From the NCBI GenBank assembly GCA_030247885.1, contig JAPDRO010000005.1:1-64000 (forward strand): DNA of 64,000 nucleotides, written 5' to 3'. Position 1 is the stretch's first letter, and every line of letters starts with the position of its first letter. A program made the position numbers and the translations under genes. Below, in pieces: positions 4,401 to 51,683 of this stretch. The DNA comes from Taxawa tesnikishii (nom. ined.) (taxonomy: Eukaryota; Ascomycota; Dothideomycetes; Dothideales). The notes under the pieces were generated by a model, which saw only the letters and a program-made list of their open reading frames with translations, had not been told where the DNA came from and searched no databases.

Positions 4401-5843
4401 CGGAGTATCTCCCCATCGGCGTCTCGGCCGTCTGCTGCAGATAACTCTCACAGCATTCCTTGACGAGCGCGAGCGTTTCTCCCCACCCTGCCGCTCTTTG
4501 CGAGCACAGTCATAGAAGATCAGCAGCTGCGCGACCCATATCATCGCAGACAGACTGCTGTTGAAGTTGCCGGGTTCCATCCAGCCTTGCGTAGACGGCT
4601 TGATGCTTAGCATCGCGCAGAAGCTCACTATTGGCGAGCGGTACCGTCGGGCTCCGGTAGTGTGACGGATAACGAGCATCCATAACTCAACCAGCCCATC
4701 TCTCAGTTGGCCCTTGATCCCTTCACCCGTGCCCGTCGCTCCCCGTTCTGCTAACCGACGGAGGTTATGCCACACCACCCTTTGCTTGTCCGTCGGTTCG
4801 ATCACGTCCTCTGGCCGGATCGTCTCCTCCGAGTCAGCACTGAAGTGGTACTCGTCACAGATCGCCACTCGCTCCAGGTACGACAGGAACTGTGACGCCA
4901 GCTTGAAGTAGACCTTGAGCGTGCCGGGCTCCTTGTAAGGATCGAACGGCCGAACCTTCCCAATCGACTCGACCTGCGACGACTGGAACCGACTGAGAAC
5001 GACGCGACATGGCCAAGTGAGCATACAGTCGGGTCCGTCGAAACACCAGCCGTGCGCCTCCCTGAGCACGTCCTCCATCGCATCGACGATCGTCCGCAGA
5101 GGACATCCTTCGTCTCGCGAGGGCACGGCGATCGCTGCTCGGATCTCGTCTTTCTTCAAGCCGCAGACATGGTCGACGATGCCGGTCTCTCTGAGCCATG
5201 GTACCACGGTAGAACGATGCTCGTCGAATCCGCGGACACGGTTGGCCGCAGATGCGGCGTCGCGCTCTGCCTGAAGGATGTCTTCTTCTTGCGTCCGGAA
5301 GAAGTCACGCTGGTGACCGGCTCGCCTCCGACCGCAAATCTCCAGGTCCGCTACTTGGACCTCGAAGTACCTCTGCCAGCTTCCGACCTTGAAGAAACGC
5401 TGACAGGCGCGGTCGCAAGACCACAGCTTGTTGTGGGTATGGACCTGCTTCAAACGAGCATCGCCGCCTCGCTTCTGTCCGTTGACCCAGCCGTGTTGCC
5501 GCTCACAATGATCTTGCATGCCACGCGGAGTGCGGCATATATAGGGACAAAGCCTGCCTTCGCCATCTTTCCCGCCACACTTCAAGCCGTCGAAGTACAC
5601 CGGAAGTCCCGTTACGGGAGGCTCTGTTGCTGCTGGATAGATGACATCTGCCTCGACTTGCGCAAGTTCGGTAAAAGACCCGACTTTGGCAATAATGTCC
5701 CGCCGTTGTTGTAAGCTGAGACGCTTGTGATGCACACGAAGATGTTTGGCGAGCTGCGAAGGTACGACTGCATACTGACAATGGATGCAAACAAGGATGC
5801 GGTGCTGGGCGACTACTTGGAAGAGACGATGAAAATCATCCAT
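1411..5843 (-). CDS. TLH: Telomere-linked RecQ-type helicase
   Basis: Subtelomeric RecQ-family DNA helicase, the fungal telomere-linked helicase type. The start at 5843 (MDDFHRLFQ) leads into a zinc-finger region like DUF3505: a C-x2-C...H-x3/4-H motif in the first 40 residues and a second Cys/His cluster near residue 90. A middle region is rich in Arg-Asn-His. The helicase core lies at about 3100-2200, with Walker A (LPTGAGKS), DECH box, motif III (TATLP) and motif VI (QESGRAGRDG). The C-terminus has several Cys pairs, possibly zinc binding. Reading is continuous apart from single-base frame changes near 4470, 4412, 4115 and 3643, the second and fourth at G runs. It is the last gene before the telomere, where this family normally sits. 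TLH genes are known or suspected to act in telomere maintenance when telomerase fails; that role here is inference. Confidence 0.9.
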
Positions 5844-6183
5844 CTGAGTCTTGGCTTGCCTTCACGGCTGCCATACTTGCGAGGCCAGACATAGCTATAT
5901 TACCTTTCTAAGGATTTAAAGGATCCATGTGATGCTCAGGATCAATTGTTTAGAGCGTACTGATCACGTCGCATAGACACAGGGCTGGTCTTTGTTTGGA
6001 GAGGCCGCCCTGCGAAAATGCGGGAGTGGCCTATGCACAAGGCGCCTCATCTTTTTCCTTTTAAGACCGCCGCCCTTGATGTTCCATGTATATGGCATAT
6101 ATATGAGTGGTGTTTGGCATGCAGAGAGAATAACCTTATGACAGTATAGTGTGTGGGTTTCGAGAAGGTTGGGGCTCGGGAAG

Positions 6184-32190: not shown

Positions 32191-33728
32191 TAACGTAAAC
32201 CGCGGGAAGCCGGCCAGGTAGGGTAGCCGGCCACCTAAACGCGACCTTCTCATCTTTGTGTATTGCTACCGTCAACTATGAGTACTCCTATGCCTAGCAA
32301 GCCGGCTTATACTGAATCTAATATCTAGAGTGCACTCTCTACCTTACGAAAAAGGACTACGCCTCGATTCGATAAGCTACTCGTGTATATAGTATACCTT
32401 ACTAAACTCTACGCGATCGTATAGCCGGACATAATTCGCGCGCGAGAGCGCATAAAATGGAGTAGATTCTCTCGAACGCCGAAAAAGTATATTAGTACGA
32501 TAGATTACGCGTCTTATACGTACTAGTTTCCCTACCTCGCCTACGTTAGTAGTACAAATAGCCGAGGAAATCCGACGCGGTCGCGTTTAGCTATTAAAGA
32601 CTTTATAATTATTACCTCGACTAATTAGTAAGAAGTAGCTTAACTACTTTAAGACTCGCTATCCTAATATCGTAGGCATTTAGACTCGTTAAATTAAGAG
32701 CGCGCGCTTTAATATAATAAGTTATAATACTATAAAAAGTAGTTTAACATAGTAACGAAGCTATTCCTATAGTACTAGTATCCTCTAGAGCGCGTCTATA
32801 ATATAGACGAGTCTAGCTTCGTAGTTAAAGTAAGTTAGTTATTAAGAGCTTTAATTAATATTTATAAAGTATCTAGCTAGAAGTAAATCGGAGGCTAGTA
32901 AAAGTAAATAATTATAGTCGAGTATATAAGCGCTATTAAGGAAGCTATATTACCCTTAATTATCTTTAAAGCTAAATATATTAATACGGCGTAGATACTT
33001 ACTAATATACTATAAGACTAAAAGTTCTTAACTAGTAGTAATAGCTAGACGTTTAATAATTATAACTACGAGTAATTAACTATTATTTTCGAGCCGTTAA
33101 CGTAGCCTAACGACCTTATAATATAGCGACTATTAATTATAGATAGTTATAGTAGTTATATTACTATAAAGGTAATTACCTTTTATATAGAAAATATAAT
33201 TAACTTACTTATCTTACTACCTTATTACTCGTATATATTCTAGCTACTTAATATTAGCGTCTTTACTTTACTAAAGCGCGCGCTAACTTTAGAGACTAAT
33301 ACTACTTTACGACTCGACTTAGGCTATATATTACGTATAAAATAGACGGAAATATATATTTAAGTAAGAAATAAAGTACTTACTATATATAATATCCTTA
33401 GTAAATAGAGAGGCGCTAGCCTTAAGCCTCTAAGCCTTATAATAGTACTTAATAAGTTACTTACGAAGCTAACTATTACGGATATATAACCTTATATACT
33501 TTTATAATAACCCGATTTAAATCTCTTACTACTAGATAGTTTTCCTCTAAATAATATCGAACTATATAAAGTAAACGTAGCGCTTAAATTAGCTATTAAA
33601 GCTACGTAGAACTTACCTTTTTAGTAAAGTAATATATAAAGTAAATAAGTTACTTTACTAAAATAACGTATAGTAAGAATGTTATATTATAAAAGTAACT
33701 AAAAAAGTAATAAGAGCTTCTTAATATA

Positions 33729-33749
33729 CCGTCACGAAATCCCGGATCG
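33729..33749 (+). repeat. Left terminal inverted repeat of the large transposon
   Basis: CCGTCACGAAATCCCGGATC plus one further G. The exact inverse occurs at 48124-48144. Comparison with the uninterrupted Fot copy 1 puts the insertion in a TTAATATA(T/C)A context with at most about 2 bp duplicated. Confidence 0.92.
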
Positions 33750-33751
33750 TA

Positions 33752-33776
33752 GTATCGGTAGTAATACTACCGATAC
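33752..33776. repeat. Hairpin inside the left terminal repeat
   Basis: GTATCGGTAGT and ACTACCGATAC are perfect 11-bp inverted arms around AAT, starting 2 bp inside the terminal repeat. More GGTA/TACC words continue to about 33890. Confidence 0.85.
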
Positions 33777-33899
33777 CACTCGTACCAATGATACCACCTA
33801 TACCAGACGTTATGGTACTTACCACGCATACCGGTATGCATGGCAATCACCATATGTACCGATAATTCTGGTACATACTAGTACATCTAGCTCATCTCG

Positions 33900-34180
33900 C
33901 CAGGCGAGTCGTTAGGCGAATCGCGCTTCGACTCGGTACTACGTATGTCTCCGCAAGCTCCGAGTAATAACCTTATCTAGAGCGATTTAATAACACGTAC
34001 CGACTCGTCCATGCAAACCGATTCGTCTATCTATATCGAGTCGGTCATATGCATCGACTCGTCGATATCCGTCGAGTCGGTGACACGCCACTATTAGGTT
34101 ACTTAAACTAACCAAGTTGCACGTTCCGACTCGCTGGTATATACTAGCTCATTAGCTCACCTCGACTCGCCAATATACGT
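33900..34180. repeat. Left subterminal array of CGANTCG heptamers
   Basis: About ten copies of CGACTCG/CGAGTCG or CGATTCG/CGAATCG within 280 bp, in both orientations, for example CGAGTCG at about 33904 and CGACTCG at about 34058. The same word recurs in every non-coding interval of the element. Confidence 0.85.
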
Positions 34181-34724
34181 TAGCCTTCCCCGACGTGGAA
34201 TATATGGCATATATAGATTCTAGCAATGTGCAACGTCGGTACGAGAGCGTAGCCTAGTACATTTGTTCTACGGTATCTACCTATCTATTAACTCTATCCT
34301 TACCTTTACCTTGGCCCTCTTCTTCTTGAGCTGGGGATCTAGTAACTACTTCCGAATCGCTTTGAAACTGTCCTCATCAAACGGGCGATCATCCTTGCCC
34401 CATAGTGTAGGCACAAGTCCATCGGCCTTAGCGTAGATACTATATAACTATAAGTGCTAGCCTCGTAGTGGTCCTAGTATGTCCAACGTCCTTTTTCAAC
34501 CCTTGCCCATGAAGCGCCTTTGCGAGTGAAGGTTACTACCTCTAGCGTGCACTCCGACTGCCCTCCAGTTTGCTATTGTCCTTGAGTATCTGTAGACAGT
34601 TGCGTAACGGATGATGGTAGGGAAGACAGCGAACTGCTTGATGATCGCCGTACTATGCTTCCTACCGCGTCAGACTATCGTTCGGGGGACGCTCCGCCCT
34701 AAGCGGGCTCCGGAACCCTTGCTC

Positions 34725-35993
34725 CTACGGTGGCTTTGACTGCGTTGCCGTGTCCCGACTCGTCAGGTCATCGTCCGACTCTACATCGTCCGACTCGCGG
34801 GGCATGGCGTAGTCTATAGTAGCTCTGTAGCTAGATTTCGATGGAGAAGACGGCTGTCCCTTGCGAAGACTGGCTTTGTTTAGATCTTCGCCGCTGTCAA
34901 TTTCCTCACTGTTCGAGCTCTCCTTAGAAGTCAGTCTAGCAAGTGTATTTACCCATTTCTGCATGTCCGTTACGTCAACGAATTTGTCCATGTATGGGTC
35001 CTTCTTAAGGGTCGCTAGCACGGCTTCGGTAAGGCGGCTCTGGATTAGCTCCTAACGTTCTGAACATTGGGTTAACCAGGTCCTCTACTTCTCCTCGAAC
35101 AGTTCTGCCGCCTCGTTTAAGTCGAAGTCCGGATATATCGGCTCGCTAGTCTTATCGGATCTGCACGTTCCAGTAGCCTAGCTATTGAGGAATAACTGCA
35201 AAGTAGCACAGACCGACACTATAAGGAAGGGCGACAGTGGTCGAAATAACTTAGCTGTTAACGGATAGACACTAGCTTGGCCTGCTCCAAAGTATGCGGA
35301 CCGGATGCTCTCTATTATCAAATAGCTAGTATACCTCTTGGCCTACGTTCGAATTAGCTTCTAGTATCTAGCGAAGAACAACGTTAGTACACTTTTCCCG
35401 TCCTTGCACTCGAACAAGGCGTTCGGTATATGCTTACGGGCCCATTTCTTCCTAAATGCGACGCTACGATGCCGCGAGCAGACTAGCCTTTCGAGTGTGG
35501 CCTTGATTGAAGCGGTAGCAGTACTCCTACTCTTGCGAACGGCTTCGCGAAGCTAGTGTACGCTTAGTATTATACCTGTTCCGTCGGTCTTCCAATGTCT
35601 TACCTTAAATCTCATGCCTTTATGCATGGTTGCTGGAATGCTCTGTAGAGGGTTGGTCTTTAGCTTTTCGTCTCGGACTCCCGCCCACTCGCCCTCGGCC
35701 ATCTCGAGAAGTGTAGCTTCCGCTTGTGAGGTAGGAAACATTGACTGTTCGCAGTGTCCGTTGTGCGTGCGAGCGATGAGTCGTATACGCACTTCCGAGT
35801 ATATCTCGCGCTAGTCTAGTGGCATCACCCATCCTTTCCCTATGTTCACGCTATAGTGTCCTGGTTGGTCTAGTATACTGCTATCTTGCGAGCCACTCGC
35901 TCGGCCGCCGGATTGTAAAGAACCAATGTCGATTGCGTCGACGCCGGCGCCTGTTATGCCTACGTCTCGTTTTCTTTTTCGACTAGAAGGCAT
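34725..35993 (-). pseudogene. Unassigned gene A of the large transposon
   Basis: One minus-strand frame from ATG 35993 (MPSSRKRKRDVG, a basic nuclear-localisation-like start) to 34725, about 420 residues, broken by several in-frame stops, mostly TAG and compatible with CpA-to-TpA change. The region after about residue 45 (GKGWVMPLD...RLIARTHNGHCEQ) and the central helical part look folded. The C-terminus is acidic and Ser-rich (SDDVESDDDLTSRD). No family recognised. It sits on the outer left side, transcribed toward the left end. Confidence 0.55.
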
Positions 35994-37034
35994 TTCCTTG
36001 GAGAACGTAAGTAATAGCGCTGCCGCCGATAGCATACCTACTTACCTCCTCCCATACTGCCCCGGAAAGACTAGGGACATACGACCGGCCTCCGCTTCTG
36101 TTAGTACTATCAGGCGTAATGTTAGCGTACGTTCGTTAAATACGTAGTCGCTTGTTATGTGTCCTGAACTCTCCTAGTGCCATGCTACTAAGATATCGTA
36201 CTCGTATACTAGCGGGATAGTAGCATATAGACGTAGAGTACTACTTGCTCTCTTAGTGTTAGTCTAGAGTGATAGCAGTGGATGTAGTATAGGCTTTCAT
36301 CGAACTAGGCGCGTACGGATTTGAGTTGAGTCTAGTGGTTTCAGCGTGCTAACCGACGTAAGGGAACGTCATCTTTCGCAAGGAATCGTTAGCTAACGCA
36401 ATATCGTGCAAAGTCTAGTTCGCGGGATGTAGCCGAGCTAACTAGCGTTCATTTGGAGTAAGCCTGGCAGCTAACCCGCTATGCCATTGTTCGATATGCG
36501 AAGTAGTTCTCCCTGCTAGTAGGAAGCTAAGCATAGATGTTAGGGCCTAAGTCTTTGGCAATGTCCGACGATCCTAGCCCTCTAGGTACTAGGGTGTTTA
36601 ATACCGCCGATCGTGTCAACGTTGATGCAAGCCGAGCTTCGAGACACTATATAGCGAGTAGTGTTACTTGACGGAAGAGACCCGACAGACTTGTGTCTAA
36701 TTAGTTGGCTATCTACTCAGTCGACTCGGAAATCGGTAGGGACCCCGCCCCTGTCCGACTCGGAACGTGAATTGTAGAGATCGCCGACTTGGGACGCAAG
36801 TCGCCCATATCGTCGAATCGCCGCGGACGATTCGGTAATCTCTTACGAGTTTGCGCATCCATAGCGGGCGGCGACGTACCAAAGGACCTAAGTCTCTTGC
36901 CTTTGATCCCTTACTCGCATGCTTTGCTATATCCTCTAAGCCTCGACGGCGCTCCCAGTCAGAACAGTGTACTTTCATGCAAACCATTCGCATAGACACT
37001 CTCTTCTTCGTACAATACCCCTCGTCTATGCGCT

Positions 37035-38227
37035 TCACTTAATCACTCGACGCGACTTGGTGGGGACGGGCAGTAGTTTGACAATATGCCTGCGTAGTAG
37101 CCTCGCGCAGTTACGGATCCTGTCGTTGTCTAATCTATTAGGATTAATCTTCTTGTCGGTTCTAGTATTCGGTTTGTCTAGATGGTCTTGCACGCGTCTC
37201 TTGAATCGTGCCTCTTGCAGCCCGGCGAGCTCCTCCGTGTAGGCTTCTCTAATGCCGTCTCCGTTAACGGTCCATGGCTTCTTTGCGGCCGTCTCTAGTT
37301 GGAATGCGCGACGGCTTGCTTAGTGTTGCTACTCGAGAATAAGCGAGAGGAAGGCGTCGACGAGCCGATGACTTTTATAGACCGGCTAGATATATAGGCC
37401 GTTTATGGCTCTAGACATTCTGACGCAGTCGGTGCTAGTGGCATAATGAAGAAAGTCAGAGGTTACCCCAAGAGCGTCTTGTATGCTAAGACTGCCTTCC
37501 ATTACCGCTCGTTGTCTATCGAAGGGCGGTCTCCAATCTGGTCATTGTCCTATCCGAGGAGATCGGCCTCGCGTTGGAAACCATGGTCGGATTCTAGTAT
37601 CGATATGAACATGTCCCAGTCTAGATCTTCTATCGTAATCGCGCTCGAAGAAGTACTATACGGCCAACTGCGCGCTAGTTCGCAAGGTCGACAAAGCGCT
37701 TTAAAAGTGCCATCCCTTCGCACAACCGACATCATTCCTTGCCACGTCTCATGTTTTGTGGTTGCCATGGAGGTTTGGGGAGCACTAGCGGATAGATGGG
37801 TATCGTCTAGCAAGTAGTGTTTCGGCTGCGCATCTTTCTCTCCGTTTACGCACTTTGTATCCTTGCTCTTAGGGAGTCCTTTGCGCCGTCGTCGGAAGTT
37901 CGTGCTTATACGGTATACTAGGTCCCGAAAGAGTACTTGACCCTTCTCCGTCCGCATGATCTCAACCGTATCTGGGAAGCGACTTTGGGTCTACTTAGAC
38001 GCAAAGATGCACGTAAACATCTCCTTGTGTATGGCGTTCTTTTTGGAAATCGAGCGGAATGTCTACCCAAGCAAGCCTCTTTATATAATCTCGTATTCTA
38101 CGCGTACATAGAATTCTTTGTAGCCATCGTCATCTAGACCGAGACCCTCTCGAAGACTACCGTATCTAGGTTGACTGTCTAGCGACTGAGTAGATGCAGG
38201 TTTAGTGATTCGTGTTGTTGTTGTCAT
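37035..38227 (-). pseudogene. Unassigned gene B of the large transposon
   Basis: Starts at ATG 38227 (MTTTTRITKPASTQ), reads through 37550 with RIP-type stops, then continues in a shifted frame from about 37500 to about 37035. About 390 residues. A short polar N-terminus precedes a folded part (GYKEFYVRVEYEII, GQVLFRDLVYRIST), and the C-terminal third is rich in Lys/Arg/Asn (TRTDKKINPNRLDNDRIRN). The family is not recognised. It is divergent from the helicase gene across 1.7 kb. The 3' end is uncertain; heptamer-rich sequence follows at 36720-36840. Confidence 0.5.
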
Positions 38228-39960
38228 CCGAGTCGTCTTACTTGGGGTAGCCGGTCTGTCCGAGTCGGTGCCATATTAACTGACGGCAGAAGATCGCAGT
38301 TGTGTCTTGTTGAAAAACGAGGTGGACATTAGTACGGTATAGTTGGATCTATTGATCGTACGGCCTCGTTATGCCGATATATTGTGTAAGGTGTAGTAGC
38401 TTGATGCGAAGGGTTGCCGTCATGTATACTACTATATTCGGCCTAGATCTTAATATTCTAGGTTATTGTCGTGCGTATATGTCCTTATACTCATTACCTC
38501 GAGTTAATAGGACCACGCTTACGTCGTGCACGGGTTAACCGAGGTCGCTTGTATATATACCCTTGGAAAAGCGACGTCGGCTCATCGCGCTTCTCCTTGT
38601 CATCGAAAAGAACACTCTATAAATGCAATGACCTCGTTTAATGTTGGCTTCGACAATGGCAATGTTTGGGCGTATGGTTCGTACAATCACTCTCCTCTAC
38701 TTGTGTGCAACATCTCTATCGCTAGATGCGCTAAACTGCAGTAGATCCGAACGGCCGGCTGTTCACATCAACCATAGCTTGTATACTTACTTCCGTTGTC
38801 GTCGTATGCGAGCTTGTAACACCAATAATCCTCGCCAGGCTAGGCCTACCTCTAGGATCGATGGCCGAGGTATGGGGACTTCTTATTAGCCGGGGACGTT
38901 CTCTCCGTTAAGGCGACTGCAATGGCGCGTCAATGGTCTAGTTTGGACGGCCGCATGGCGAGATGTTGTCTTCAGTTTGAGGAAGCATCTCCATGTAGGT
39001 ATATGCGCCTAATATACCGATTAGAACGTTTGTTGCTGTTTCCCTATCTCTTTGTCACAAAGCCTACATGTTAGCTAACAGCGTGATTGTAGTGGCACAT
39101 CATCCATATCGGTCTCTTTGTGCTCGCCACGTCATGTATCGGGTTGCATAGTTTGGCGCGTTCTCAGTGCAGTAGACGGCGCATGTTTAGTGGATTGAGT
39201 CGACGAGTCGGTGCCACTACGTGTGAATCGCCTTTCGAATCGCCTTTGTCCCTTGCATTCATGTGCTGCCACGTGCAGACCCGCCTCACATGATACGAGT
39301 GCATAGGGCAGATAGGAAAGCGATTCGCAAGCAACGAGTCGAATAGCGATTCGTTTCTGCTACTGGCCTTTCAACCTACTAGTGAACCGAGTTTGCTCTA
39401 TGTTTGCATACAGGTACCCTATCAGTCCGATTGCACTCATCGTTTATCTCATTCACAAATACACACACATATACACACTAATAATCTTTCTTACGTTTAC
39501 TGCCTCTTTCATCCACTACTATACAGAGCTTTCCTCCTTTGCTACGTTCTTCTCCTAATCACAAATCACTGCGTCTAGCTGTATCGGTTACGTGCAGCAC
39601 TAGTAATACAGCAACTCGTCACTCTGCGCATCAACTGTACGTTTCTCGGCGATCTACCAACTGTCTCGCCTTACACTCCGTCCAAACCTCCTCCAACTGT
39701 CGCTTGCGCGTCACCTTACGCGCCGCAAGGCTTCTACCAAAGCTCTTCATCTACGCCACTATCGGGAAATACTGCCGTTCTAAGATCCTTCACTCAGTTA
39801 GTTTAGCTATATACTCAGTACTCGCGTACGTTGTTCGCTCTTTAGGCTATCAATCTGGGACTAACAACCGACATCTCTAGATTACTTACTCCACCAACCC
39901 TCTCATCCATCGGCCCTACCGCTTCGACTGCTCCTTCCTCTGTTCCATGTTCTAGTCATC
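38228..39960. promoter_or_regulatory. Divergent spacer between gene B and the helicase gene
   Basis: Heptamers CGANTCG occur at about 38236-38270 and cluster at 39185-39350. From about 39400 the plus strand becomes C/T-rich with CACACA patches, typical of a fungal 5' leader before the helicase ATG. No credible frame. Confidence 0.5.
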
Positions 39961-42900
39961 ATGGCGGCCCATTCCGGAGTGTTCAACGTATCCGACGACA
40001 CAACCTGGACGGAAGATGGCATCATAACATGGTTGCGTACCAAAACAGGCGAGAGGTCCGACTCGTTCTTCAGGACGTTCTTTAACTGGAACGCAGATGA
40101 CTTCCGCGCCGCGGCAACCACTACTATAGACAAATGCAGGAGTGCCGGTATGGACATGGAAGCCCCCGCCTCGGTGACAAGAAACTCTAGATCGAGCAAC
40201 GCTTTAAAGCCGAGAGCTTGATGATAAATGACCCCGCCGACACATTCAAATATCACGGCGGAACGCAACCGCAATGGTTTACTGAGAGAGTGCTTCGTGG
40301 TCCAAACCGCACCGCGGAAGTTCCGGTAGACGTGAAAGGGAGCGTACTCCAGGCGTGGATTGCAAAGGCATGGGGAGCCCGGAAGAAAGGAAACAAAGGT
40401 TTAACACTTGCTCGCTCTACGCTACGGTCCCAGACTCGGTCGAGGAGCCCTACAGCAACATCGTCGTCTAGCTACCGCAACTGCAGCCCTCTCAGGTCAC
40501 GTTTGTCGAGTTCAAGCCTTGGAGCCGATGACTTCGCAAACCTCAACTTCGGTCCGTTACGCCCTGGTAATGAAGACGCGATGGATGTTGACGACCCACC
40601 GTTCGTGGTGCACACGCTGCATGAAATGCCTCTCATCATTGTAGTTATCGAGCAAACCGGGCCGCATCTCTGCATTGACCGGAATGCCTGTTATGGTCAG
40701 ACTGGTGCGTTCCTTACACCAGATGGAGCTACTCAGTGGGACACGTTTACTGAGTTTCTGGGCACGTCGGGCCATGAGGATTGGCCAGTGTTTTGGTTCA
40801 ATCCATGGGCTAGACATACACACTCGAGTCGATAATAGGTTCAAGCTTAGTACTGCAGTGATGCAACTCTGGAAATTCTGGCGTGGAAGGAGCAGTGCTA
40901 TCTAGCTCTTTCTCGCTCCCAACGAGGACACTGTCCAGCTTGTACCCTACGAAGAGAAAGGTAAAGTCATTACGCTATCCTAAGTGGTACACTACTGACA
41001 TGTCAACAGTCAAGACGCGCTTGGCCAATAACGTTCATGATGTGGTCATTCAGACTCCAGAAGAGCAACTCACGGAGGACGATTTGGTCCAACAGCGACT
41101 AGCGAATGAGGACGCTCAGCGGCTCGCGGATGAGGAAGCTCAGCGACTCGCGGATGAGGAAGCCTAGCGACTTGCGGATGAGGAAGCTCAGCGACTCGCG
41201 GATGAGGAAGCTCAGCGACTCGCGGATGAGGAAGCTCAGCGACTCGCGGATGAGGAAGCCTAGCGACTTGCGGATGAGGAAGCTCAGCGACTCGCGGATG
41301 AGGAAGCTCAGCGACTCGCGGATGAGGAAGCTTAGCGATTCGCCGATGAGGAAGCTCAGCGCGGCGATAAAGAACGCGATGTTGAAGAGACCAGATGGCT
41401 GTGGATGATTCCTGCCACATCAGACGACGACATTAAGGTTGCCGAAAGCCCTACCGCACCCTCTATCGATCTCAGTAGATACAACTACTCGAAGAATGAG
41501 GCACTGTCGTCCGCGAAGCTACGCCCTAAGATACGAGAGGGTTCAACCGAAGAAGCCTTAGCGAAGGTAACAGATCTGAAACAAATCGACGTCGATACCT
41601 GGAACGCTGTATGTAGGTTTTTCGGCCATGACCCCACTAACATACATCCAAGATCCGGCGTGTTCTTCCCGGGATGGAAGCGCAGTGCCAAGCTTCTGTC
41701 ATACTAATTCTATACGGTTGGATGGCTTCTAAAGAGGCTACTGCAGGGATCTGAATGCGTCTTCATTGGACACTCTATGGGCATGGGCAAGACAGCTATC
41801 GTCCTTGCACTCTTGAAGCTTCTAGCGAAGGTAGCCAAAGATGGAGCGGCAGGTGTCGCGCATTTATTGGATTCTAGCTTCCATCTGAATCCTAACGCGC
41901 TTACTTAAGTCGATGGACCATTACGACGCACCCAATCAGGACCTATGCTAGTGATTACTCCTACCTACTTGTCATCTAACTGGGTCAACGAATGGCGCAA
42001 GTTTTCTATAGTCATCTCAGAGAAATCTACTGGAGTTAAGATGATTCTAATGTTACTAGTCGGCCTGTTGACTAACAGGGCTATGGAATCCGAATTCAAG
42101 GATTGCTACAGGCTTGACGATGTGGTTAGGCCTAAAGACCTGCCGCCTCGAGAGCAGCTAGTAGCCACTTACGGATTAGAGGAAGATGTACCCATAACGA
42201 TTATAGCCAAAATTCTGCTGGAACCTAATGCGTCACATAAACCTGAGCCGTGGCAATCGGAATAGTGTGTGCTTACTACCCAGGCAATTGCGGTATCAAA
42301 ACTCGCGGTTAAAGTACTAGGAGACTTAAACGTCCACGGAGAAATCTACGCCCGTTGGAGTGTCGTCGCATTCGACGAGTACTATACGAACCGCAACCCT
42401 AATTCGTCTGTTTGGTCCAAGTTGGCGTACCTTCCTAGCGATCCGAATTTCATTTTCATAAGCGGAACTCCGTTTCCGCCGACGCTTGCTTTGGTCCCTC
42501 CTCTTCTCGCTACTTACGCTCGCTACTATGAACCAAAGTCCGGAACAAAGTTTATAACCATCGCGGCGAGCAAATGGACCCCGAGCAACGTACGCACTAC
42601 GAATCTACCGTTTCGACCGAACCTTACCCAAGTAAAGCAACGCGCTTTGTCTCGAACCGGCTTTATACTAATCGCTCAAAGTGTAGCGATTATCGACAAG
42701 GCTTAGAACAAGAAGAACAAACTCTCCGATGCGATCGCCAAATCGGCATAGGATAAAGAGGACGAAGAGGACGAAGAGGGACGCAACAGTGATGACGAGC
42801 AGGATGCCCCCGGATAGTGTCCGCGTCGAGCTGACACTAGAGTTGCAACGTGCGATACAAGTCGTAGCGAAGGGCGCTGAAAAGTATATGATCCGCTTCC

Positions 42901-44109
42901 CTACGGAGCTTTAGTGGCAGGTCGATCCAAATTCCGAGGGCCAACTAGCACTAGACTTCCCACCGCATGCCATATGGGATTAGTATTTTGACATCGACGA
43001 GAAGTTCCGTCGCGACGGCCTAGGGGACGAATGGTTGCAATCGGTAAAGGAAGTCTAGACGAAGACTAACAAACACTCTGAAGCTCAGACGGAGTGGCTG
43101 TTCTTCCAGATTATTCGCAAATTTCGCATCTGGACGGTATTCCCTTGTCTGTACACTCTGATGGAGAACGACGATGAGATAAAGGCCGAGCTAAACAAAA
43201 TGGACCGTGACGACGCGGCAAGGATTCTAAAGGGCGCACGGAATTCTACGTTATGGAGCCACATGCACAAGATCGATTAACTCCCTCCGATGATAGTATT
43301 GAAGGACATGATTGCGCAAATACGTGGTCAACTCAACTTCTTCAAGAGGCCACGAAAGATCATCATTGCGGCTTTTGTACTATTCAACGTTATAGTGGTC
43401 TATATGGTAAGTAGTTACTACTCACACGTACTAACAAACCGCTAATACTATCGTAGTACCTACTTTGGCTAGTAGGGCGGCCAAACTACACGGCAATTAA
43501 CGATGAGAAGGACATCGCACTTGTCGCTTCATGGAATAGTCAAACCGAGCGTAACGAGTAGATTGCTAACTTCAAGACTACGACCCCTAGCTACAAAGAA
43601 TAGCCTGGCATCATGGTCGCCTTAGCGACACAGATCGCGGCGGGCCTGTCCCTCGACCCAGCGGACGTGGTGATTATCGTCGATCCTGAGTTTGACATGG
43701 CAAAGGTTGAGTAGGTTATGGCTAGAGTGAGACGTATAAGGCTCACGCAAAGGCTCCCTACACTAAAGGGTTTCGTCTAATATGCAGTGCTCCATAGTGT
43801 AACCTTTAGGATTGGATGTGTAAGCGCTAGAATTCAGCCACTCATATCCGCGATTAGGTATACCGTGTAGCCGGACAGACTGGCTATGGTGGCAATTAAA
43901 CAGGTACCTGGAGCGCAGATAGTACTTGGAAGAAGACATTGCGAAATAGCACGGAGGATCCCTTATGTCTAGCGACACGATTCGCTAGGTCTCATGCTTG
44001 GTTTTGCTTCTTTCTCTACGATTATGAAGGTAGATAGACATAATGTCATTAGCTTTCTTATGCCCTTTACTCCGTCCGCGACATGTTGTAGTTCTTACTA
44101 CGAACTATG
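39961..44109 (+). pseudogene. SNF2-type helicase/ATPase gene of the large transposon
   Basis: ATG 39961 (MAAHSGVFNVSDDTTW) opens a long gene with several introns or frame changes and RIP-type stops. An N-terminal region of unknown fold is followed by an (AQRLADEE)n repeat at 41116-41356. The ATPase core has motif I GHSMGMGKT (about 41768), motif Ia-like VITPTYLSSNWVNEW (41944), a DE box in VVAFDEYYTNRN (42364) and motif III FISGTPFPP (42457). The second lobe has IAAGLSLDPADVVIIVDPEFD (about 43640) and VMARVRRI (43717). This order and wording is that of SWI2/SNF2 proteins. Its role in transposition or chromatin opening is inference. The C-terminal end is approximate. Confidence 0.75.
41116..41356 (+). 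repeat. 24-bp coding tandem repeat, about ten copies
   Basis: Each 24-bp unit encodes an octapeptide like AQRLADEE, giving a charged helix or coiled coil in the SNF2-type protein. Most units contain CGACTCG, the same heptamer as the non-coding arrays. Three units have TAG where the others have CAG. Confidence 0.92.
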
Positions 44110-44517
44110 AGTCGTTCATGATTCGAGAGTCATTAAACGAGTCGCAAGGCGACTCACATACTTGTAGTGTTCCTTTAGGGGTATAGGGACAGGACGTGGG
44201 AAGAGATAATCTAGGGTAGATCTAGACGCGCCGAATTGCAACACGAATCGCAACACGAATCGGCAAAAGACGAATCGGCGGAAGGCGAATCGGAAGATCT
44301 GATCTAATCTAATCGAGCGCCCAGGCGTCTGGGGTTAACCCTCTTCGGCTTATACATATGCGACTTTAACACGATAGTAGACACACACTGCCACCATGGT
44401 CTAACCGCATGCCTGCAGTGCATGTGGACGCGTATATAAACAATCGTACGGCCTACGGATGCACATCGCTACGTGCAGGGCACGCTATTCGTATAACCCC
44501 GACACGTAACTGTTAGC
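44110..44517. promoter_or_regulatory. Heptamer-rich promoter of the transposase gene
   Basis: At least six CGANTCG words at 44110-44300, including four CGAATCG spaced 10-20 bp apart just upstream of the transposase leader. They may be binding sites by which the transposase or a partner controls its own gene (inference). Confidence 0.55.
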
Positions 44518-47500
44518 ATGGAGGATACTACTCGTCCACTAACAACCGATATATCAACCGACATCACGGACGGAGAAACGGCTACACTACAAATTAAAGA
44601 TACACCGTAGCTACAGTTCAATTATATCAACGAAGGCTATAGCACACAAAACGTAACCGGCGCAACTATAGACGATAGTAAGTTCGAAGAACTACTAGAC
44701 GTTTTTCAAGACGTCGCCTATAACCCACCAACCGCGGAAGAGGAGGATGACTCATATGGAGACGTACTATAGAGTTCTGCACTAGAGGACGAACGAGACA
44801 GCATTGGAACCGGCGGCTCTATAGCTTACGGTGGCAAGGGTAGACTGTCGTCGTCTACCTCGCGTATAGAAGGTAAAACGAGGACGTTTGAAGAAGTTAC
44901 AGGGAGAGCGGCAGGTAGAGGAGTAAACAGGTAAGTGGTATTGCATATCGACACCGTTTCTCTAGGTTCTGACACAAACATATGTGTACGCCTCCCGTAT
45001 TTACGGACCCGGAACGACTCGCCGGCTTTACTAGCGATGCGGATGTTACGTTCGCGAACTGGCTACACTAGGAAAACATATCCAAAAACGCAATTACTCG
45101 CCTGATGCGTGAACCAAGGCTACATGCGATCACGCAACACTTTAGCTGGCGTTCGGCGGCCGAACTCGAAGAGAAGATAGCTGCAATGGGAAGAGGAAGA
45201 AACGTCGCATAATGGAATATCTGGCCTTTTACGCTACCTTCGACGAACACATCACAGGGGACCAAAAGATACTACTTTCGATATAGACGAGTCGAAGACG
45301 CGATTCGGTTCTTCCTAGGGCATCCTAGTTTTAGTAACGACCTCTAATTCTCTCCTTACCGGATATGGACAGGCGATAGAAACGCGCGCAGGGTATACAA
45401 CGAGATAGCTTCGGCTAATTAGTAGTAGGACACTCAAGAGTAGCTTGGCCGTGATGATGCCACAATTATACTATTGATCGTATCCACCGACAAGACACAG
45501 GTGACGAACCATCAGGGAGACTAATTAGCTTATCCAGTGTACCTCACTATAGGTAACCTCATAGCGGATGTACGGAACTCTAACCAAAGGCCTAGATCTA
45601 TGCTTCTTGCTTTGATCCCGATAGTAAAAGAGAAGGACGCTACTACTCGAGCTCGTGTATTCCATGATTGTCTCAAGGTCCTGTTCGACCCTATTAAGGA
45701 GATCCTACACAATGGTGGCAGAGAGCTACCGTGTAGTGACGGATGGACGCGTCAGTGCTTCCCCATTCTCGCTGCAATGACTCTAGACTACGAAGAGCAA
45801 GCCCGGGTAACAGGGGTTAAGAGTAGTCGACAATGTACTATATGCAGCATACGTCCAGGTGATCGAGAGGACCTCGAAGCGTGGGCTCCCTGGAGGACAC
45901 ATGAGGAGACTCAACAGCAAATCAGTTACTAACGGATGAACCCTACCGACCGCGACCGAGAGGACTAGGTACACGATATCGACTCGTTCGCTTTCGGCCA
46001 TCCATGGGTGAATATACACGTAACAATGATGGTTAATATCCTACACTAGCTACTTAAGGGCGTGCTTGATCACGTACGGCAATGGTTGATTGCCCTACTA
46101 GAGGACTTGCTTCCTAAAAGGCACGGCAAAATATACAAGGCGGCAATCGAAGAAGCTAGACAGCGCGGAATACGATTTCGAGGTAAGACACTACTAAAGG
46201 ACTTCGTCGCAGATCTCATCGACAGGCGTTTTGCGGCAGTCTCGCCGTACCGCGGCTTACGTGTATTCAAGTAGTTATTAAGTAGAAGACAGATGATAGG
46301 GAAAGAGCTTAAGAGCATCCTACGACAGCTGCTGCTAGTATTCACCCCATTCTTGGAGGAGGCTAGAGCTACGGAGGCAATCCTATTTATACGCGCGGTC
46401 GTCGACTTTGTCTTACTCTCGCTCTATCATAGTCATGACGACGACACCCTCCGCTACATGACGTTGGCGCTGTTTCGTATGAACTAACACAAGGAGATAT
46501 TCCGAAGGTATCGGCCTAATACAATAGAAGACACGGAAGGCCATTTCAACTTCCCTAAATGGTATGTAATGACATACTATACGGACATGATCAGACGACT
46601 CGGATTAGCGCTAGGACTCGATACAGGCCACGGTGAGCATAACCACGTAACGTTCGTCAAGCAGGGGTATAAGCGTACTAACAGGAAGGAGGGCTAGGAG
46701 GATCAGCTTACTATGTGGAACGATCGTAGTCTAAGCATGGCTGCCGAATTCGACATCGGACCGTACCTACGCAACCTTACTGTAGCGGAGAAGATAGAAG
46801 AAGTAGATGAACCAGTAAGGCTAACCGAGGCAGTTAATGTGGAGCGTTATTTTGGGTGGCCGCCGACGGCGCGACCAAAACTACACGCAGCGCGGGAGAA
46901 ATGGCGGCAAGTCAACGAAGTGCAAATGCTCCTTGGGCCCACAGCCAGTGTCGTCTTTCGACAAGCGTTGGCCGTGTTCGTGCGCGAATCGAGATTACCG
47001 GAAGCTAGTGCCACCTAAGCTAGCATATACGATCCTAATCGGTTAGAGGAAGACGACTCGTGGATATTGCCGTATTAGGTACAGTTTCACCCCTCATTGC
47101 GGTGTAGAAAAGCTACTAGTAAAGATCCTAATGATCCCGATAGTACTAAACATGATATAGTTAGGTGCGCGCCGAACTAGCAAAACATTAATGGTAACGC
47201 AAGACATGATTGGATATGGGTATAGGAGTACGTAACGGTCACCTCCGAGTCGTGCGACGATTCGGCAAACACTATATCCCAAGTAGCGTTCGACGGACGT
47301 CTGCTAGCGCGCTTGTAGCTCATCGTTACTATAGAAGACAGGTAGCGCGACAAAAATGGCAACATGACTACGCGGAGATATATAGGTGCGTTGGTCGATC
47401 TATATGTACCTAAGAACCCACACGGCCGCGCAGATGCCGTACATGGGATAACTATCATCAAGCCGATACTACTACCACCTCGGAGAGGCTTACGACGCTT

Positions 47501-47726
47501 GGGTGGACGAAGAATATATCCCTTGACCGGTATTTACCATAGTATCCACGTAGTATCTACGTTAGCACTATGGAACGACAAGAGCGGTGAAATGTATATT
47601 AACAATACTGCCGATTGGGAGACGTACAATTTCCTATGGAACGCGGACTGGGAGGAGGAGGCAGCTCGAATAGCCGTCGACTCGAGGAACGCCCGCATAA
47701 GAGCGGCGAAGGTTGTGACACACTAA
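44518..47726 (+). pseudogene. Plavaka-type (KDZ superfamily) transposase gene
   Basis: ATG 44518 (MEDTTRPLTTD) begins an acidic N-terminal exon ending near 44931 at a GTAAGT donor. The transposase body runs from about 44985. Family-typical blocks are STDKTQVTNHQGD (about 45487), followed by YPVYLTIGNLIADVR, then HDCLKVLFDPI, a C-x2-C pair in RQCTICSIRPGD (about 45829), DSFAFGHPWVNIHV, and NFPKWYVMTYYTDMIRRLG near 46550. The frame is shared over almost 3 kb and is interrupted by many TAG/TAA codons where Gln is likely, so the gene is RIP-inactivated. Plavaka elements are placed in the KDZ superfamily of DNA transposons. The C-terminal part ends with TAA 47724-47726. Confidence 0.82.
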
Positions 47727-47759
47727 AGAGCTAAACACTACTCATAAGCAAGATGACCT

Positions 47760-47960
47760 TAGTATCTGCCGAATCGTTAACTCGCTCGCCAAACGAATCG
47801 CAAGGGTAGCGACTCGCGCGGTCTTATATACGGCTCGTATATTAGACGACTCGCGTACAGTAGGGAGATAGTAGGCTATAGTTAGGTTAGTAGCCGATTC
47901 GGTCAACGATTCGGTCAACGATTCGTAGACTAGGCGATGAATAGGTCTATAGGAAGAGAG
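47760..47960. repeat. Right subterminal array of CGANTCG heptamers
   Basis: About eight copies in 200 bp, including a tandem GATTCGGTCAAC run at about 47900-47926. It mirrors the left array at 33900-34180. Confidence 0.85.
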
Positions 47961-48057
47961 TTATCGATTCGCTTTACATAAAGTTATTATAATAATGTTT
48001 CTCGTAGTATAGTATAGTCTCGCATAACGTGGTATATATTTGTATAACGTAGTAAGC

Positions 48058-48115
48058 GTGGTAAGCGTAGTATACCTAGTATATACGGTACGATTATTCG
48101 TACTACGCTTACCAC
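48058..48115. repeat. Hairpin inside the right terminal repeat
   Basis: GTGGTAAGCGTAGTA (48058-48072) and its exact inverse (48101-48115) flank a 28-bp loop, ending 8 bp before the terminal repeat. Confidence 0.88.
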
Positions 48116-48123
48116 TAATACCG

Positions 48124-48144
48124 CGATCCGGGATTTCGTGACGG
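48124..48144 (-). repeat. Right terminal inverted repeat of the large transposon
   Basis: Exact inverse of 33729-33749. Immediately beyond it the Fot sequence resumes and aligns with copy 1. Confidence 0.92.
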
Positions 48145-48574
48145 CCACGAAAGGCTTAAAAGAAGGGAAAGTAAGTTATATTAAAGGGAAGGTTTATATT
48201 TAGTACTTACGAAGTACTTAAGATAGTAAAGGTAATAGAAGCGAATTTAGCTACTAAAAAGCTACGTAGATAACTATGTAAGCGTATAATTAAGGAAGTA
48301 CTTAAGGATAAGGAAGATAAAGTGCCTAAAAGTATATATAGCGACTTAGATTCTAACTATATCGTTATTACGGTGCGTAGATAGCGATTAAAGCTAGAGA
48401 GTTCGTGTTCTAATAGCCGGATACCCTACCTAGCCGGATACCCTACCTAGCCGGCTTCCCCGCGGTTTACGTTATTAGTCCGACGGATCATATATATAGT
48501 ACGTACCGAATTCGCTGTTCGGCCTCTATATTAGCATACTCTACGACTATATAGACCGCTTAAGGACACCTTAC

Positions 48575-48939: not shown

Positions 48940-51683
48940 CTATACGATAGTCACCCATACTTTCGAATCGTTCGTAGTCACCGGACCCCACGATTCCGCG
49001 CCTGAGACGTGCAGGATGTCTTCGAGGCTCAACTTGCTAAATTCCTCGTCGGTCAGCGTTGTTGGCTGTCTGGCCTCTTCATCTAAGTTGTCCCCTTCAT
49101 GATGTTTAACAAAACTCGCGATGCCGACGCGTACGACATCAAAGATTGCTTTGAACCTCCAGCCTTGGATGTCCGGGCGTTCCTTTGTCTCCCGCTGCAC
49201 ATCTTCGCTCGTCAATATCGGCTTGTAGCGTAGTTCTTTTTGACTGTGTTGCATAGGGTCATGCCGATCTTTAGTCCTAATTATCAGCGCGTTGGCAGGA
49301 TCGAGGAACAACGCGTAACATGGGAACTCGAGAGGTTCGTTGGGGAAGTCGAGGTGGAGAGCACCCACTGACGTTCCACGCTCATCATCGAAGTCAATCG
49401 CGACTGGGACGCCATGTCTGTTCCACGCTTTCTTTGGCTCGTGGCGCTTGAGCTCAAACACTGGTCCCTGCAAAGCCGTTTGCATAATTTCGAAAGCTAG
49501 AATCTCTGGTACTCACCTGAATGTCTAGCTTTCCATCCGACACCATACCAAAAGCGTCAGGACCCGCCGGTGTTGTTGAGCATCTGAGAACACGGGCGAC
49601 GAGGAGGCTGTAGTTCAATGGAATGAAACGAACAGGAGCATCGAGAGAAGCCCAGGACCAAGAAGGTGCCCGATATTTATCAGGCTTCTTGATGTCTCCA
49701 ATAATTTTGCCCTTCACCACCCTGTGGCCATGACCGTCGCATCCCACGTTGTCTTCGTTCTCTTCTTGAGCATAGACACGCCAGTGCAGATCCTCGATAA
49801 GATGATTGGCCCAAAGGCCAGCAAGATACCGGTCGTTGGTCTCTTGTGCAATGGCCCGAGCTAGACCCGAAAGGGCAGGGAGCTTGTCCTGTGGCTTTGT
49901 AAGTTTGCGCTTAGAAAAATCTTCTATTAGCATCAGCCAACCCCTTCCCACCTGCCTATGGGAGAGATGGGAAAGCTGCCGGCGGACCGTCCCGCAATGA
50001 ACGATATGCCACTGTCGCGGGAAGGCCGTGGTCCTCGAACGCTATCAACTGAGTGGCCAGGAGGCGTTTCATGTTAAAGTTGGTATCTAGAAAGCTGGAG
50101 CCATCCTCTGACCTCAGAATTGACTCGCATTCAAAGTACATCTGGTCTTTGGTATAGTAAATGATCCTCGGCGACAGCAAGCGTTCCTGTAATGTCCAGG
50201 CCCGAGTACTGATAGGTTCTTCCGCCAGTGGGTCGAAGCACTTCCCGAATGCTCCGATAAGGGATACTTGAGGTGTGTTGGAGGTTGATCCGGGTAGCCA
50301 CTCCTCAAAAAGATATAGGTGCGAAGATTTTGCAGGCTGTAAGGGACTCCACAAGTCCAACTGGCAACTTCCAGGTCCGAGCACGTCTCTGGGTGTATCA
50401 TAGCCCAGCGATCGCGTACCGGGTGATACGTATGAGTTAGAGTCTCCAGTTCGTGAAGGGAAGCAGCCCATGTAGCTGTCAACCGAGCTTGAAGCCGAGA
50501 CCGTCAAGTACGAGTTCCTGTAGACTTGCCCCATAGTAGCTGCTTCTCGTAGCCAATCCAGACGGTCATCTTGGATGATGTAGAGACAGTCGATCCACAG
50601 GTACCTCAGCCCAACCTCTTTCGTGATCCGGATGGCGTCACAGAATGTTTTTGGCAGATATGAGATCGCAATCCCGTCTTTCAAGTCCTCTAGCGTAGCT
50701 TCCGTGAGTTTCAACCGCGGGGTCGAGCCCCAGCAATGACTGAGGCTGATATACCTTCCACGCTGTCCCTTGGTCTCCCAGAGTGCCACGGAGCGATCTG
50801 ATACGGATACATCAATGACTCTTGTAGGAAGAGGCGGGTTCAATGCCGCAGAATCACAATATCCGTGATTGGCATCGCAGTCATCTATCCAGTTTCTAAG
50901 GCGATCAAAAGCTGCTTTTGAATCTGACACGGTCTCTCGTAAGCGGCCTGGAACCTGGCTGAGGGTGCTGCCTGTCCACGCTTAAATCCTGAATCGCTGT
51001 AGATGCAGAGTCAACAAACCGTCATTTGTACACACACCTATAGCGCTGCCGCAGAGATGTACGTGATCCGTTGTGTTATTGATCGCATCCCAGATGAGTG
51101 CGGATCTTCCGAAACGCGCACCAATGCCTACAAGACGCATGTCGGATCTGTCGTCCCCGTCGGATTGCTGGATGTCTTGCCACCAGTTGCCGTAGAGCCA
51201 CACTTTGATTGGAGCGGTGGAAGATAGGATTTCCATCGACTCTAACCATATTGTGTCCTCTGTCGATGTTTCTTCTTCGAGAAGGTGCTCTCCACTTGCG
51301 TCGATGCAGCCAGTTGGCGCGATAACTACTGCTCCACGATTCTGACGACCAGAAGTCGTATCCGTAGTAGGTGCACACGAACCTAGCTCTTTCGAAATGG
51401 TCACATCGCGTACAGCGAAATCCTCCACATACTTGAGGCTTGATAGTTCGCGCCAAAATCCTTTGCTGTACCGTGTGTTTCGAGAAAAACGGTAGTTCGA
51501 TCTTGCTGCGCCAAGTACTAATTTACATGCCCGGCATGTTTTAGCGGAAGTTTCAAGAGCTTGCCGTGACGTCTGGTGAGGATAACCGGGCAACTCTTCT
51601 GATGGCAGATCATACCAGGGCACCTTCAAGCACACATCACAGAGATTCCGTGATGAGAGCATGTACTGTGAGCGTGATGTCAT
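48940..51683 (-). CDS. HET-domain (heterokaryon incompatibility-type) protein
   Basis: A cytoplasmic protein of about 850 residues with the HET domain used in fungal self/non-self recognition. From ATG 51683 (MTSRSQYMLSSRN) the N-terminus carries CDVC and CRAC pairs. The HET core at about 50820-50500 reads YISLSHCWGSTPRLKLTEA, LPKTFCDAIRITKEVGLRYLW, then IDCLYIIQDDRLDWLREAA. Further conserved blocks are ISTRAWTLQERLLSPRIIYY and KLPALSGLARAIA. One intron lies near 49520-49480. A TAA at 50982-50984 and a one-base frame change near 49955-49962 interrupt reading; the former might instead be an unrecognised intron. HET genes are commonly subtelomeric and variable. Confidence 0.82.

Follow-up and report, generated by a model that had tools for sequence, protein, structure and literature searches.

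A decayed four-gene element in the window

The window analysed here is a stretch of 64,000 nucleotides from the dothideomycete Taxawa tesnikishii (positions 1 to 64,000 of contig JAPDRO010000005.1, assembly GCA_030247885.1), and it contains a transposon of the Plavaka superfamily. Four genes lie between its terminal inverted repeats (TIRs): in order, gene A and gene B on the minus strand and the genes for an SNF2-type ATPase and for the transposase on the plus strand. The window element is the copy on contig C30 of its genome, and it was this genome (29.4 Mb, 34 contigs) that we searched for further copies. An earlier note, made from the letters of the window alone, had described four long coding regions between the repeats. 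Four gene regions are indeed present, but they are not open in the window: read along the exons of a sibling copy on contig C2, from which all window gene coordinates below derive, the transposase, SNF2, B and A genes contain 22, 16, 7 and 6 in-frame stops, respectively, the SNF2 gene carries a 2-bp deletion in an exon, and the longest stop-free stretch of the element is 214 amino acids. We read the genes from the C2 copy, where the long frames are open, because it is nearly unmutated. Splice models were predicted from GT-AG sites and reading-frame continuity, the first SNF2 intron being uncertain.

The transposase gene (44,518–47,726, plus strand; exons 44,518–44,930 and 45,035–47,726) encodes 1034 amino acids. 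Its C2 exon matches the Plavaka profile PF18759 over the full profile length (E = 3.1e-73, 247 bits against a curated cut-off of 26.3), and the window transposase, read through its stops, scores 210 bits, which bears out the family assignment of the earlier note. The likely catalytic residues, assigned by eye, are D290, D389 and E672. Between the latter two lie a C-x2-C motif (CTIC) at 405 and an H-x3-H motif (HVMTH) at 648, an arrangement that the available part of Kojima 2025 (PMC12730594) describes, as C(2)C and H(3-4)H between the second D and the E, for Plavaka and its CACTA/EnSpm-like relatives. The same part of that paper places Plavaka with CACTA/EnSpm-like elements and gives target duplications of 2 bp for PlavakaA and of 2 or 3 bp for PlavakaB; the profile score, the zinc motifs (again by eye) and the TIRs with 2-bp duplications described below all agree with membership of the Plavaka superfamily. 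The earlier note had further placed the transposase in the KDZ superfamily. This has to be dropped, as no KDZ match appeared among the Pfam hits at E up to 1 and the grouping in PMC12730594, as far as its available text goes, is a different one.

The SNF2 gene (39,961–43,780, plus strand; exons 39,961–40,055, 40,130–40,960, 41,010–42,788, 42,841–43,406 and 43,457–43,780) yields a model of 1174 amino acids. In the spliced C2 model an SNF2-related domain (SNF2-rel_dom, E = 1.5e-10, 41.1 bits, cut-off 24.9) is followed by Helicase_C (E = 1.2e-5, 26.0 bits, cut-off 23.5). SNF2 ATPases carry motifs I, Ia, II, III, IV, V and VI in that order, and stretches resembling these motifs were found by eye in ordered succession: GHSMGMGKT from residue 539, MLVITPTYLSSNW at 598, VVAFDEYH at 737, FISGTP at 768, KIIIAAF at 1051, ASATQIAAGLSL at 1122 and EQVMARVRRM at 1152. 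The SNF2-type helicase with ordered motifs that the earlier note had proposed is thus upheld by the domain profiles, which, like the Plavaka profile, all scored above their cut-offs. The closest PDB matches are weak (ALC1/CHD1L, 0.0073; DDM1, 0.14). Within the gene lies a minisatellite of 24-bp units (41,093–41,361, plus strand) encoding ADEEAQRL repeats.

Gene A (34,653–36,080, minus strand; exons 36,046–36,080, 35,604–35,982, 35,391–35,552 and 34,653–35,342) encodes 421 amino acids in C2. The spliced C2 model matches DUF6532 (PF20149) at E = 1.6e-9 and 38.4 bits (cut-off 24) over positions 10–178 of 194, which makes it a member of that family. A single exon gives a weaker 1.4e-5, and this difference supports the splice model. 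Run over the genome, the profile finds two places, both within these elements; a PDB search with gene A gave no useful match. Gene B (37,403–38,329, minus strand) encodes 308 amino acids, is conserved in the more distant relative at C18 and partly in that at C10:490k, and has neither a Pfam nor a PDB match. Its AlphaFold model, made without an alignment, has a mean predicted local distance difference test score (pLDDT) of 41, with a helical stretch at about residues 72–163 reaching about 50–77. Of the two genes that had been left unassigned, A therefore has a family and B stays as it was.

The ends were seen in the window as a perfect 21-bp inverted repeat (33,729–33,749 and 48,124–48,144). 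With up to 3 mismatches allowed, the window contains no match to this pattern beyond these two sites, against 0.00 expected from 100 shuffles, which rules out a chance inverted repeat. The outermost base, C in the window, is replaced by A, T or G at the ends of siblings; because it varies among copies, the TIR proper is 20 bp long (CGTYACGAAATCCCGGATCG) and the outer base belongs to the target duplication. The perfect 21-bp repeats 14.4 kb apart that had been reported are therefore real as a repeat and one base too long as element ends. With a 2-bp target duplication outside it, the element spans 33,730–48,143 (14,414 bp). Comparison of the repeats across copies gives the left TIR, CGTCACGAAATCCCGGATCG, at 33,730–33,749 (plus) and the right TIR at 48,124–48,143 (minus).

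The flanking dinucleotides are AC on the left (33,728–33,729), identified from the 2-bp duplications at other copies and from an empty site, and GC on the right (48,144–48,145). An exact 2-bp duplication is present in 5 of the 6 copies checked: TA/TA in C2, C24 and C6, CT/CT in C11 and AA/AA in C1. The sixth is the window copy, where one G>A change of the type made by repeat-induced point mutation (RIP), at TpG, would explain the mismatch between AC and GC. Both subterminal regions (33,730–33,929 and 47,944–48,143) are rich in TACCA/TGGTA words, counted in the C2 copy as 10 in the left and 7 in the right terminal 200 bp, compared with a mean of 0.5 and a maximum of 3 per 200-bp window of its interior. 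A genome-wide search for the TIR (up to 3 mismatches) returned 11 places, ten of them forming five pairs 14.3–14.4 kb apart on C30 (the window), C1, C2, C11 and C24 and the eleventh a single end on C6.

Copies of the element and their mutation

Two-state transitions account for 2454 columns in an alignment of five copies; a further 135 columns differ in some other way, and the majority of these fall in the minisatellite. Transitions made up at least 99.4% of substitutions in all ten pairwise comparisons (lowest, 386 of 388). Derived states lie at CpA in 90–93% of cases if the neighbouring base is taken from the same copy, and in 75–90% if it is taken from C2 (window 329/386, C11 314/348, C1 1335/1772, C24 1520/2012). 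Since the changes are almost exclusively transitions and fall mostly at CpA, we attribute them to RIP. Derived states number 4 of 2454 in C2, 348 in C11, 386 in the window, 1772 in C1 and 2012 in C24, and a comparison of C6 with C2 gave 3726 C>T/G>A changes, 0 reverse changes and 1 transversion. The C2 copy is nearly unmutated and its genes are still open; the window copy is RIP-inactivated and its four genes are pseudogenes.

The contrast between C2, with 4 derived sites, and four siblings with 348–2012 could be read as protection. The SNF2, A and B proteins would then act mainly against host defence, delaying RIP or cytosine methylation in cis or in trans for long enough that some copies come through one sexual cycle; TET/JBP genes of fungal transposons are thought to counter methylation or hypermutation (PMC12730594, available part). 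However, an unmutated copy is equally explained by recent insertion, and the other copies are heavily mutated, C6 with its single substitution of any other kind included. Because most copies are mutated, a direct role against RIP is the less likely one, and we regard this explanation as improbable.

Two further features of the aligned copies were noted. The window and C11 copies share 108 CpA-type RIP sites compared with 57.6 under independence, other pairs being nearer to expectation; common hot spots or a common history are possible. The minisatellite is the main difference among the five copies not due to RIP: its copy number differs among siblings, and the window has a 72-bp stretch that is missing in C2.

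A search of this one genome with the terminal DNA of C2 recovered at least 16 left and at least 12 right terminal regions, these counts being lower bounds because heavily mutated ends can escape detection. Both regions are present in 11 copies (C2, C11:595,884, C11:594,937, C30, C24:19,465, C24:160,600, C1:1,694,043, C1:140,553, C12:6,528, C6 and C9), and in all 11 the A, B, SNF2 and transposase genes follow one another in order. For six of the 11, namely C2, C11:595,884, C30, C24:19,465, C1:1,694,043 and C6, the TIRs of both ends were read directly. Four of the other five have up to 23 outermost bases unaligned, and in C11:594,937, C9 and C24:160,600 the ends were paired by order because extra DNA lies inside these copies. 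Partial copies comprise left ends at C12:28,902 (with A, B and part of SNF2), at C1:2,816,518 and C13 (A and B) and at C17 and C1:146,812 (A), a right end at C29:741,955 with the transposase, and SNF2 and B at C1:96–106k with no matched end. We found no copy in this genome that has both terminal regions and lacks the companion genes.

These results rule out two simpler accounts. A composite of unrelated insertions does not yield an identical gene order in 11 of 11 two-ended copies, and spread within larger duplicated blocks is excluded by flanks that differ and by the exact duplication that each of five copies has of its own. Hits at 50–60% amino-acid identity might have been taken for a second family; C6, the only one of them compared in full, turned out to be a RIP-altered version of this element, as did the part of the older C11 copy that was compared.

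A direct view of insertion comes from C11, where one copy (595,884–610,227) is nested within an older, more mutated copy (594,937–634,762). When the flanks of the nested copy were joined after removal of one CT and aligned with C2, 2517 columns contained 609 C>T/G>A differences and no other substitution. The junction shows one single-base gap in an adjacent G run, and the remaining gap columns correspond to the overhang of the C2 piece at one end. A rough count made without gaps over no more than 69 bases speaks against a 2-bp duplication, with 5 non-RIP mismatches when 3 bases are removed compared with 12 when 2 are removed; the 3-base removal scores better because of the one-base shift in the G run, and the flanks repeat CT, not three bases. 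The nested copy thus has its empty site in the older copy, with a 2-bp duplication, and the whole four-gene unit has inserted at many places in the genome with 2-bp target duplications. The proposal that helicase, A and B moved with the transposase as one unit has therefore held, both in the genome-wide search for repeats and genes and in the absence there of two-ended siblings without the companions; the set is kept in a divergent family as well. From the nested pair, two rounds of jumping and RIP can also be dated relative to each other.

Divergent families and selection on the four genes

In a divergent second family, found at C18, C10:462–476k and C22:53–68k, all four genes are collinear. 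Aligned stretches of C18 retain, despite RIP, 31–47% identity in the transposase, 28–37% in SNF2, 34% in B and 30–35% in A. We sought terminal repeats of this family and established none. The sequence TTACGAAATCC, at about C10:476,555–476,567 and adjoining the right boundary of a second-family copy, is like the TIR of the window family and is possibly the end of another element. A third group was examined in full at one locus, C10:490–500k, where B (84 residues, 29%), SNF2 and the transposase (33%) keep their order.

After merging, the genome contains 33 transposase loci. An SNF2 match lies upstream on the same strand within 8 kb at 27 of them, with B and A likewise in order at 13 of these. 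Uniform random placement gave a mean of 0.16 and a maximum of 3 of 33 in 2000 trials, although this control ignores the clustering of transposons, which counts against taking the excess at face value. Conversely, 10 of 37 SNF2 loci have no transposase downstream. Two pieces of SNF2-like sequence were noted separately. At C29:410,223–410,522 (minus) lies a largely unmutated SNF2 piece with no transposase nearby, which by eye is closely similar to the third-family SNF2 and may be a donor gene, a copy since domesticated or a fragment that escaped on its own. A short open stretch at C23:55,025–55,234 (plus), 43% similar to the part of SNF2 just before the motor domain, has the look of a relic present in a single copy.

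RIP causes transitions only, and transversions were therefore tallied at each codon position. In the comparison of C2 with C18 they number 87/74/222 at positions 1/2/3 in the transposase, 176/157/235 in SNF2, 29/29/67 in B and 53/55/78 in A, with binomial p values against 0.336 of 1.6e-22, 6.7e-5, 3.4e-6 and 0.011, respectively. None of 100 neutral simulations per gene, aligned in the same way, had a third-position share as high as the one observed; their alignments took in more codons than the real comparison did, and their spread is somewhat narrower for it. The third-family locus gives the same sign (transposase 5e-12, SNF2 2e-5, B 0.013). As transversions favour third codon positions in each gene, all four were under purifying selection while the families diverged, the support being weakest for gene A.

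These data bear on whether SNF2, A and B might be captured passengers that play no part in transposition. Capture of host genes by transposons does occur, and the SNF2 relative at C29:410,223, largely unmutated and standing alone, would fit such an origin. Against this stand the presence of all companions in every two-ended copy, the order and orientation kept in divergent families, and the RIP-insensitive transversions that demonstrate selection on all four genes. Linkage and transversions have already largely refuted the passenger explanation, and we consider it very improbable and nearly excluded.

The same linkage would also be expected if SNF2 were a core part of transposition and no anti-silencing factor, moving along DNA so as to draw together ends 14 kb apart, to remodel the transposase-DNA complex or to aid the completion of strand transfer and repair. 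Motor ATPases occur in other transposons, the tight same-strand linkage of SNF2 to the transposase extends to the third-family locus where A is undetected, and SNF2 has been under purifying selection. Weighing against a core role, the Plavaka families of PMC12730594 are described without SNF2, a word absent from that paper, so that a Plavaka transposase presumably works without it. This explanation is nearly as good as the one set out next, in which SNF2 opens chromatin; taken by itself we judge it unlikely.

Candidate mechanism and known relatives

The best explanation, which we hold tentatively, is that of a RIP-inactivated four-gene Plavaka transposon whose SNF2 protein is a self-supplied chromatin opener. 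The transposase (D290, D389, E672) would bind the TIRs and the TACCA-rich ends and would cut and join DNA. An accessory part, in binding the subterminal repeats or in building the complex, would fall to A, B or both, as it does to the second protein of En/Spm-type elements. SNF2, driven along DNA by ATP, would free the ends and promoters of nucleosomes or heterochromatin and so allow transcription and cutting of the element in silenced DNA. This role would be comparable to that of TET/JBP proteins in other fungal transposons, acting on nucleosomes and not on methylated bases. A putative role in silenced chromatin, which the earlier note had suggested for the helicase and genes A and B, is plausible. 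The broader suggestion, that a Plavaka lineage permanently carries SNF2, the DUF6532 protein and B as a module for transcription and excision from RIP-marked heterochromatin, is made with a little more reserve.

Several points weigh against the chromatin-opening explanation. The parts that SNF2, A and B play in it are ones that we infer, and a remodelling activity of SNF2 is an extrapolation, since the protein is very divergent and its PDB matches are weak. Among the six copies for which a base-by-base comparison was made, five have accumulated between 348 and 3726 RIP-type changes, a clear sign that SNF2 gives no protection from RIP. It also looks less constrained than the transposase, with a third-position transversion fraction of 0.41 compared with 0.58. 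SNF2 was undetected at 6 of the 33 transposase loci (C5, C8, C9:33,237, C11:678,906, C29:738,796 and C30:1,429,727), one of which, C9:33,237, is the detached tail of the interrupted C9 copy. SNF2 matches at far loci are often confined to a stretch of some 100 residues around motif I, making their membership of this SNF2 subfamily less certain, and gene A was undetected at C10:490–500k, the single third-family locus examined.

The window also gives the setting of the element. It starts with telomere repeats, (TAACCC)n, at 1–71, which places the element about 34 kb from a chromosome end. A subtelomeric pair of frames at 1,411–5,861 (minus) encodes a DEAD/Helicase_C helicase and an OrsD-domain protein and resembles telomere-linked RecQ-type helicases. 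A frame with a HET (heterokaryon incompatibility) domain lies at 49,956–50,981 (minus), 1.8 kb past the right end of the element.

A 2014 paper reportedly named these transposon groups, and to our knowledge few transposons carry anti-silencing enzymes. A described case among fungal transposons is that of TET/JBP dioxygenases (PMC12730594, available part). The open-access papers searched include none naming both Plavaka and SNF2, subscription papers lying outside the search so that an earlier description is possible, and none naming EnSpm, SNF2 and a fungal transposase together. The available parts of PMC10799480 and PMC13297926 describe no such element, and a Ganoderma paper (PMC8955403), the only one in that search to mention DUF6532, enumerates Plavaka, KDZ and DUF6532 together among the additional domains found in two species, in the portion available, and does not link them. 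The Plavaka class is thus known, and the four-gene variant appears to be new. Its interest is that a Plavaka lineage has kept an SNF2-type motor and two uncharacterised proteins through deep divergence despite strong RIP, which makes it testable whether a transposon supplies its own chromatin remodeller. Because differences among the compared siblings are almost all of C-to-T type, with a lightly mutated copy nested in an older one and one copy nearly unmutated, the copies can serve as a clock by which rounds of jumping and RIP are ordered within one genome.

Like CACTA/En-Spm elements, which have subterminal repeats and accessory proteins, the present element has word-rich ends and candidate accessory genes; unlike them it has a 2-bp and not a 3-bp duplication and no CAC ends, and we know of no En/Spm element with SNF2. 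The two share a related transposase and the same zinc motifs, according to the available text of PMC12730594. Transposons encoding a helicase-fold ATPase include AcademH, KolobokH and Helitrons, but these are of other classes; DEAD, Helicase_C and PIF1 are the helicase domains given for them, with SNF2_N counted among non-transposon domains (PMC10799480, as available). With PlavakaA and PlavakaB of Agaricomycotina the element has in common the transposase family, zinc motifs, TIRs, a 2-bp duplication and, for some families, extra genes that include TET/JBP (PMC12730594, same part), from which it differs in carrying SNF2, DUF6532 and gene B and in its termini. These are CGT..ACG in place of TGT..ACA in PlavakaA, CGTCA..TGACG in place of CATCA..TGATG in PlavakaB, and CG..CG in place of the 5'-CA..TG-3' of the CMCT clade, a rule said there to hold 'in most cases' and from which PlavakaA departs too. 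A companion enzyme with a possible effect on chromatin or DNA marks is also found in the TET/JBP-carrying Plavaka, Kyakuja, Zisupton and further fungal elements of that paper, which are DNA transposons as well. In those elements the companion is a dioxygenase, a domain absent from the ten long reading frames of C2 that we scanned, whereas here it is an SNF2-type ATPase.

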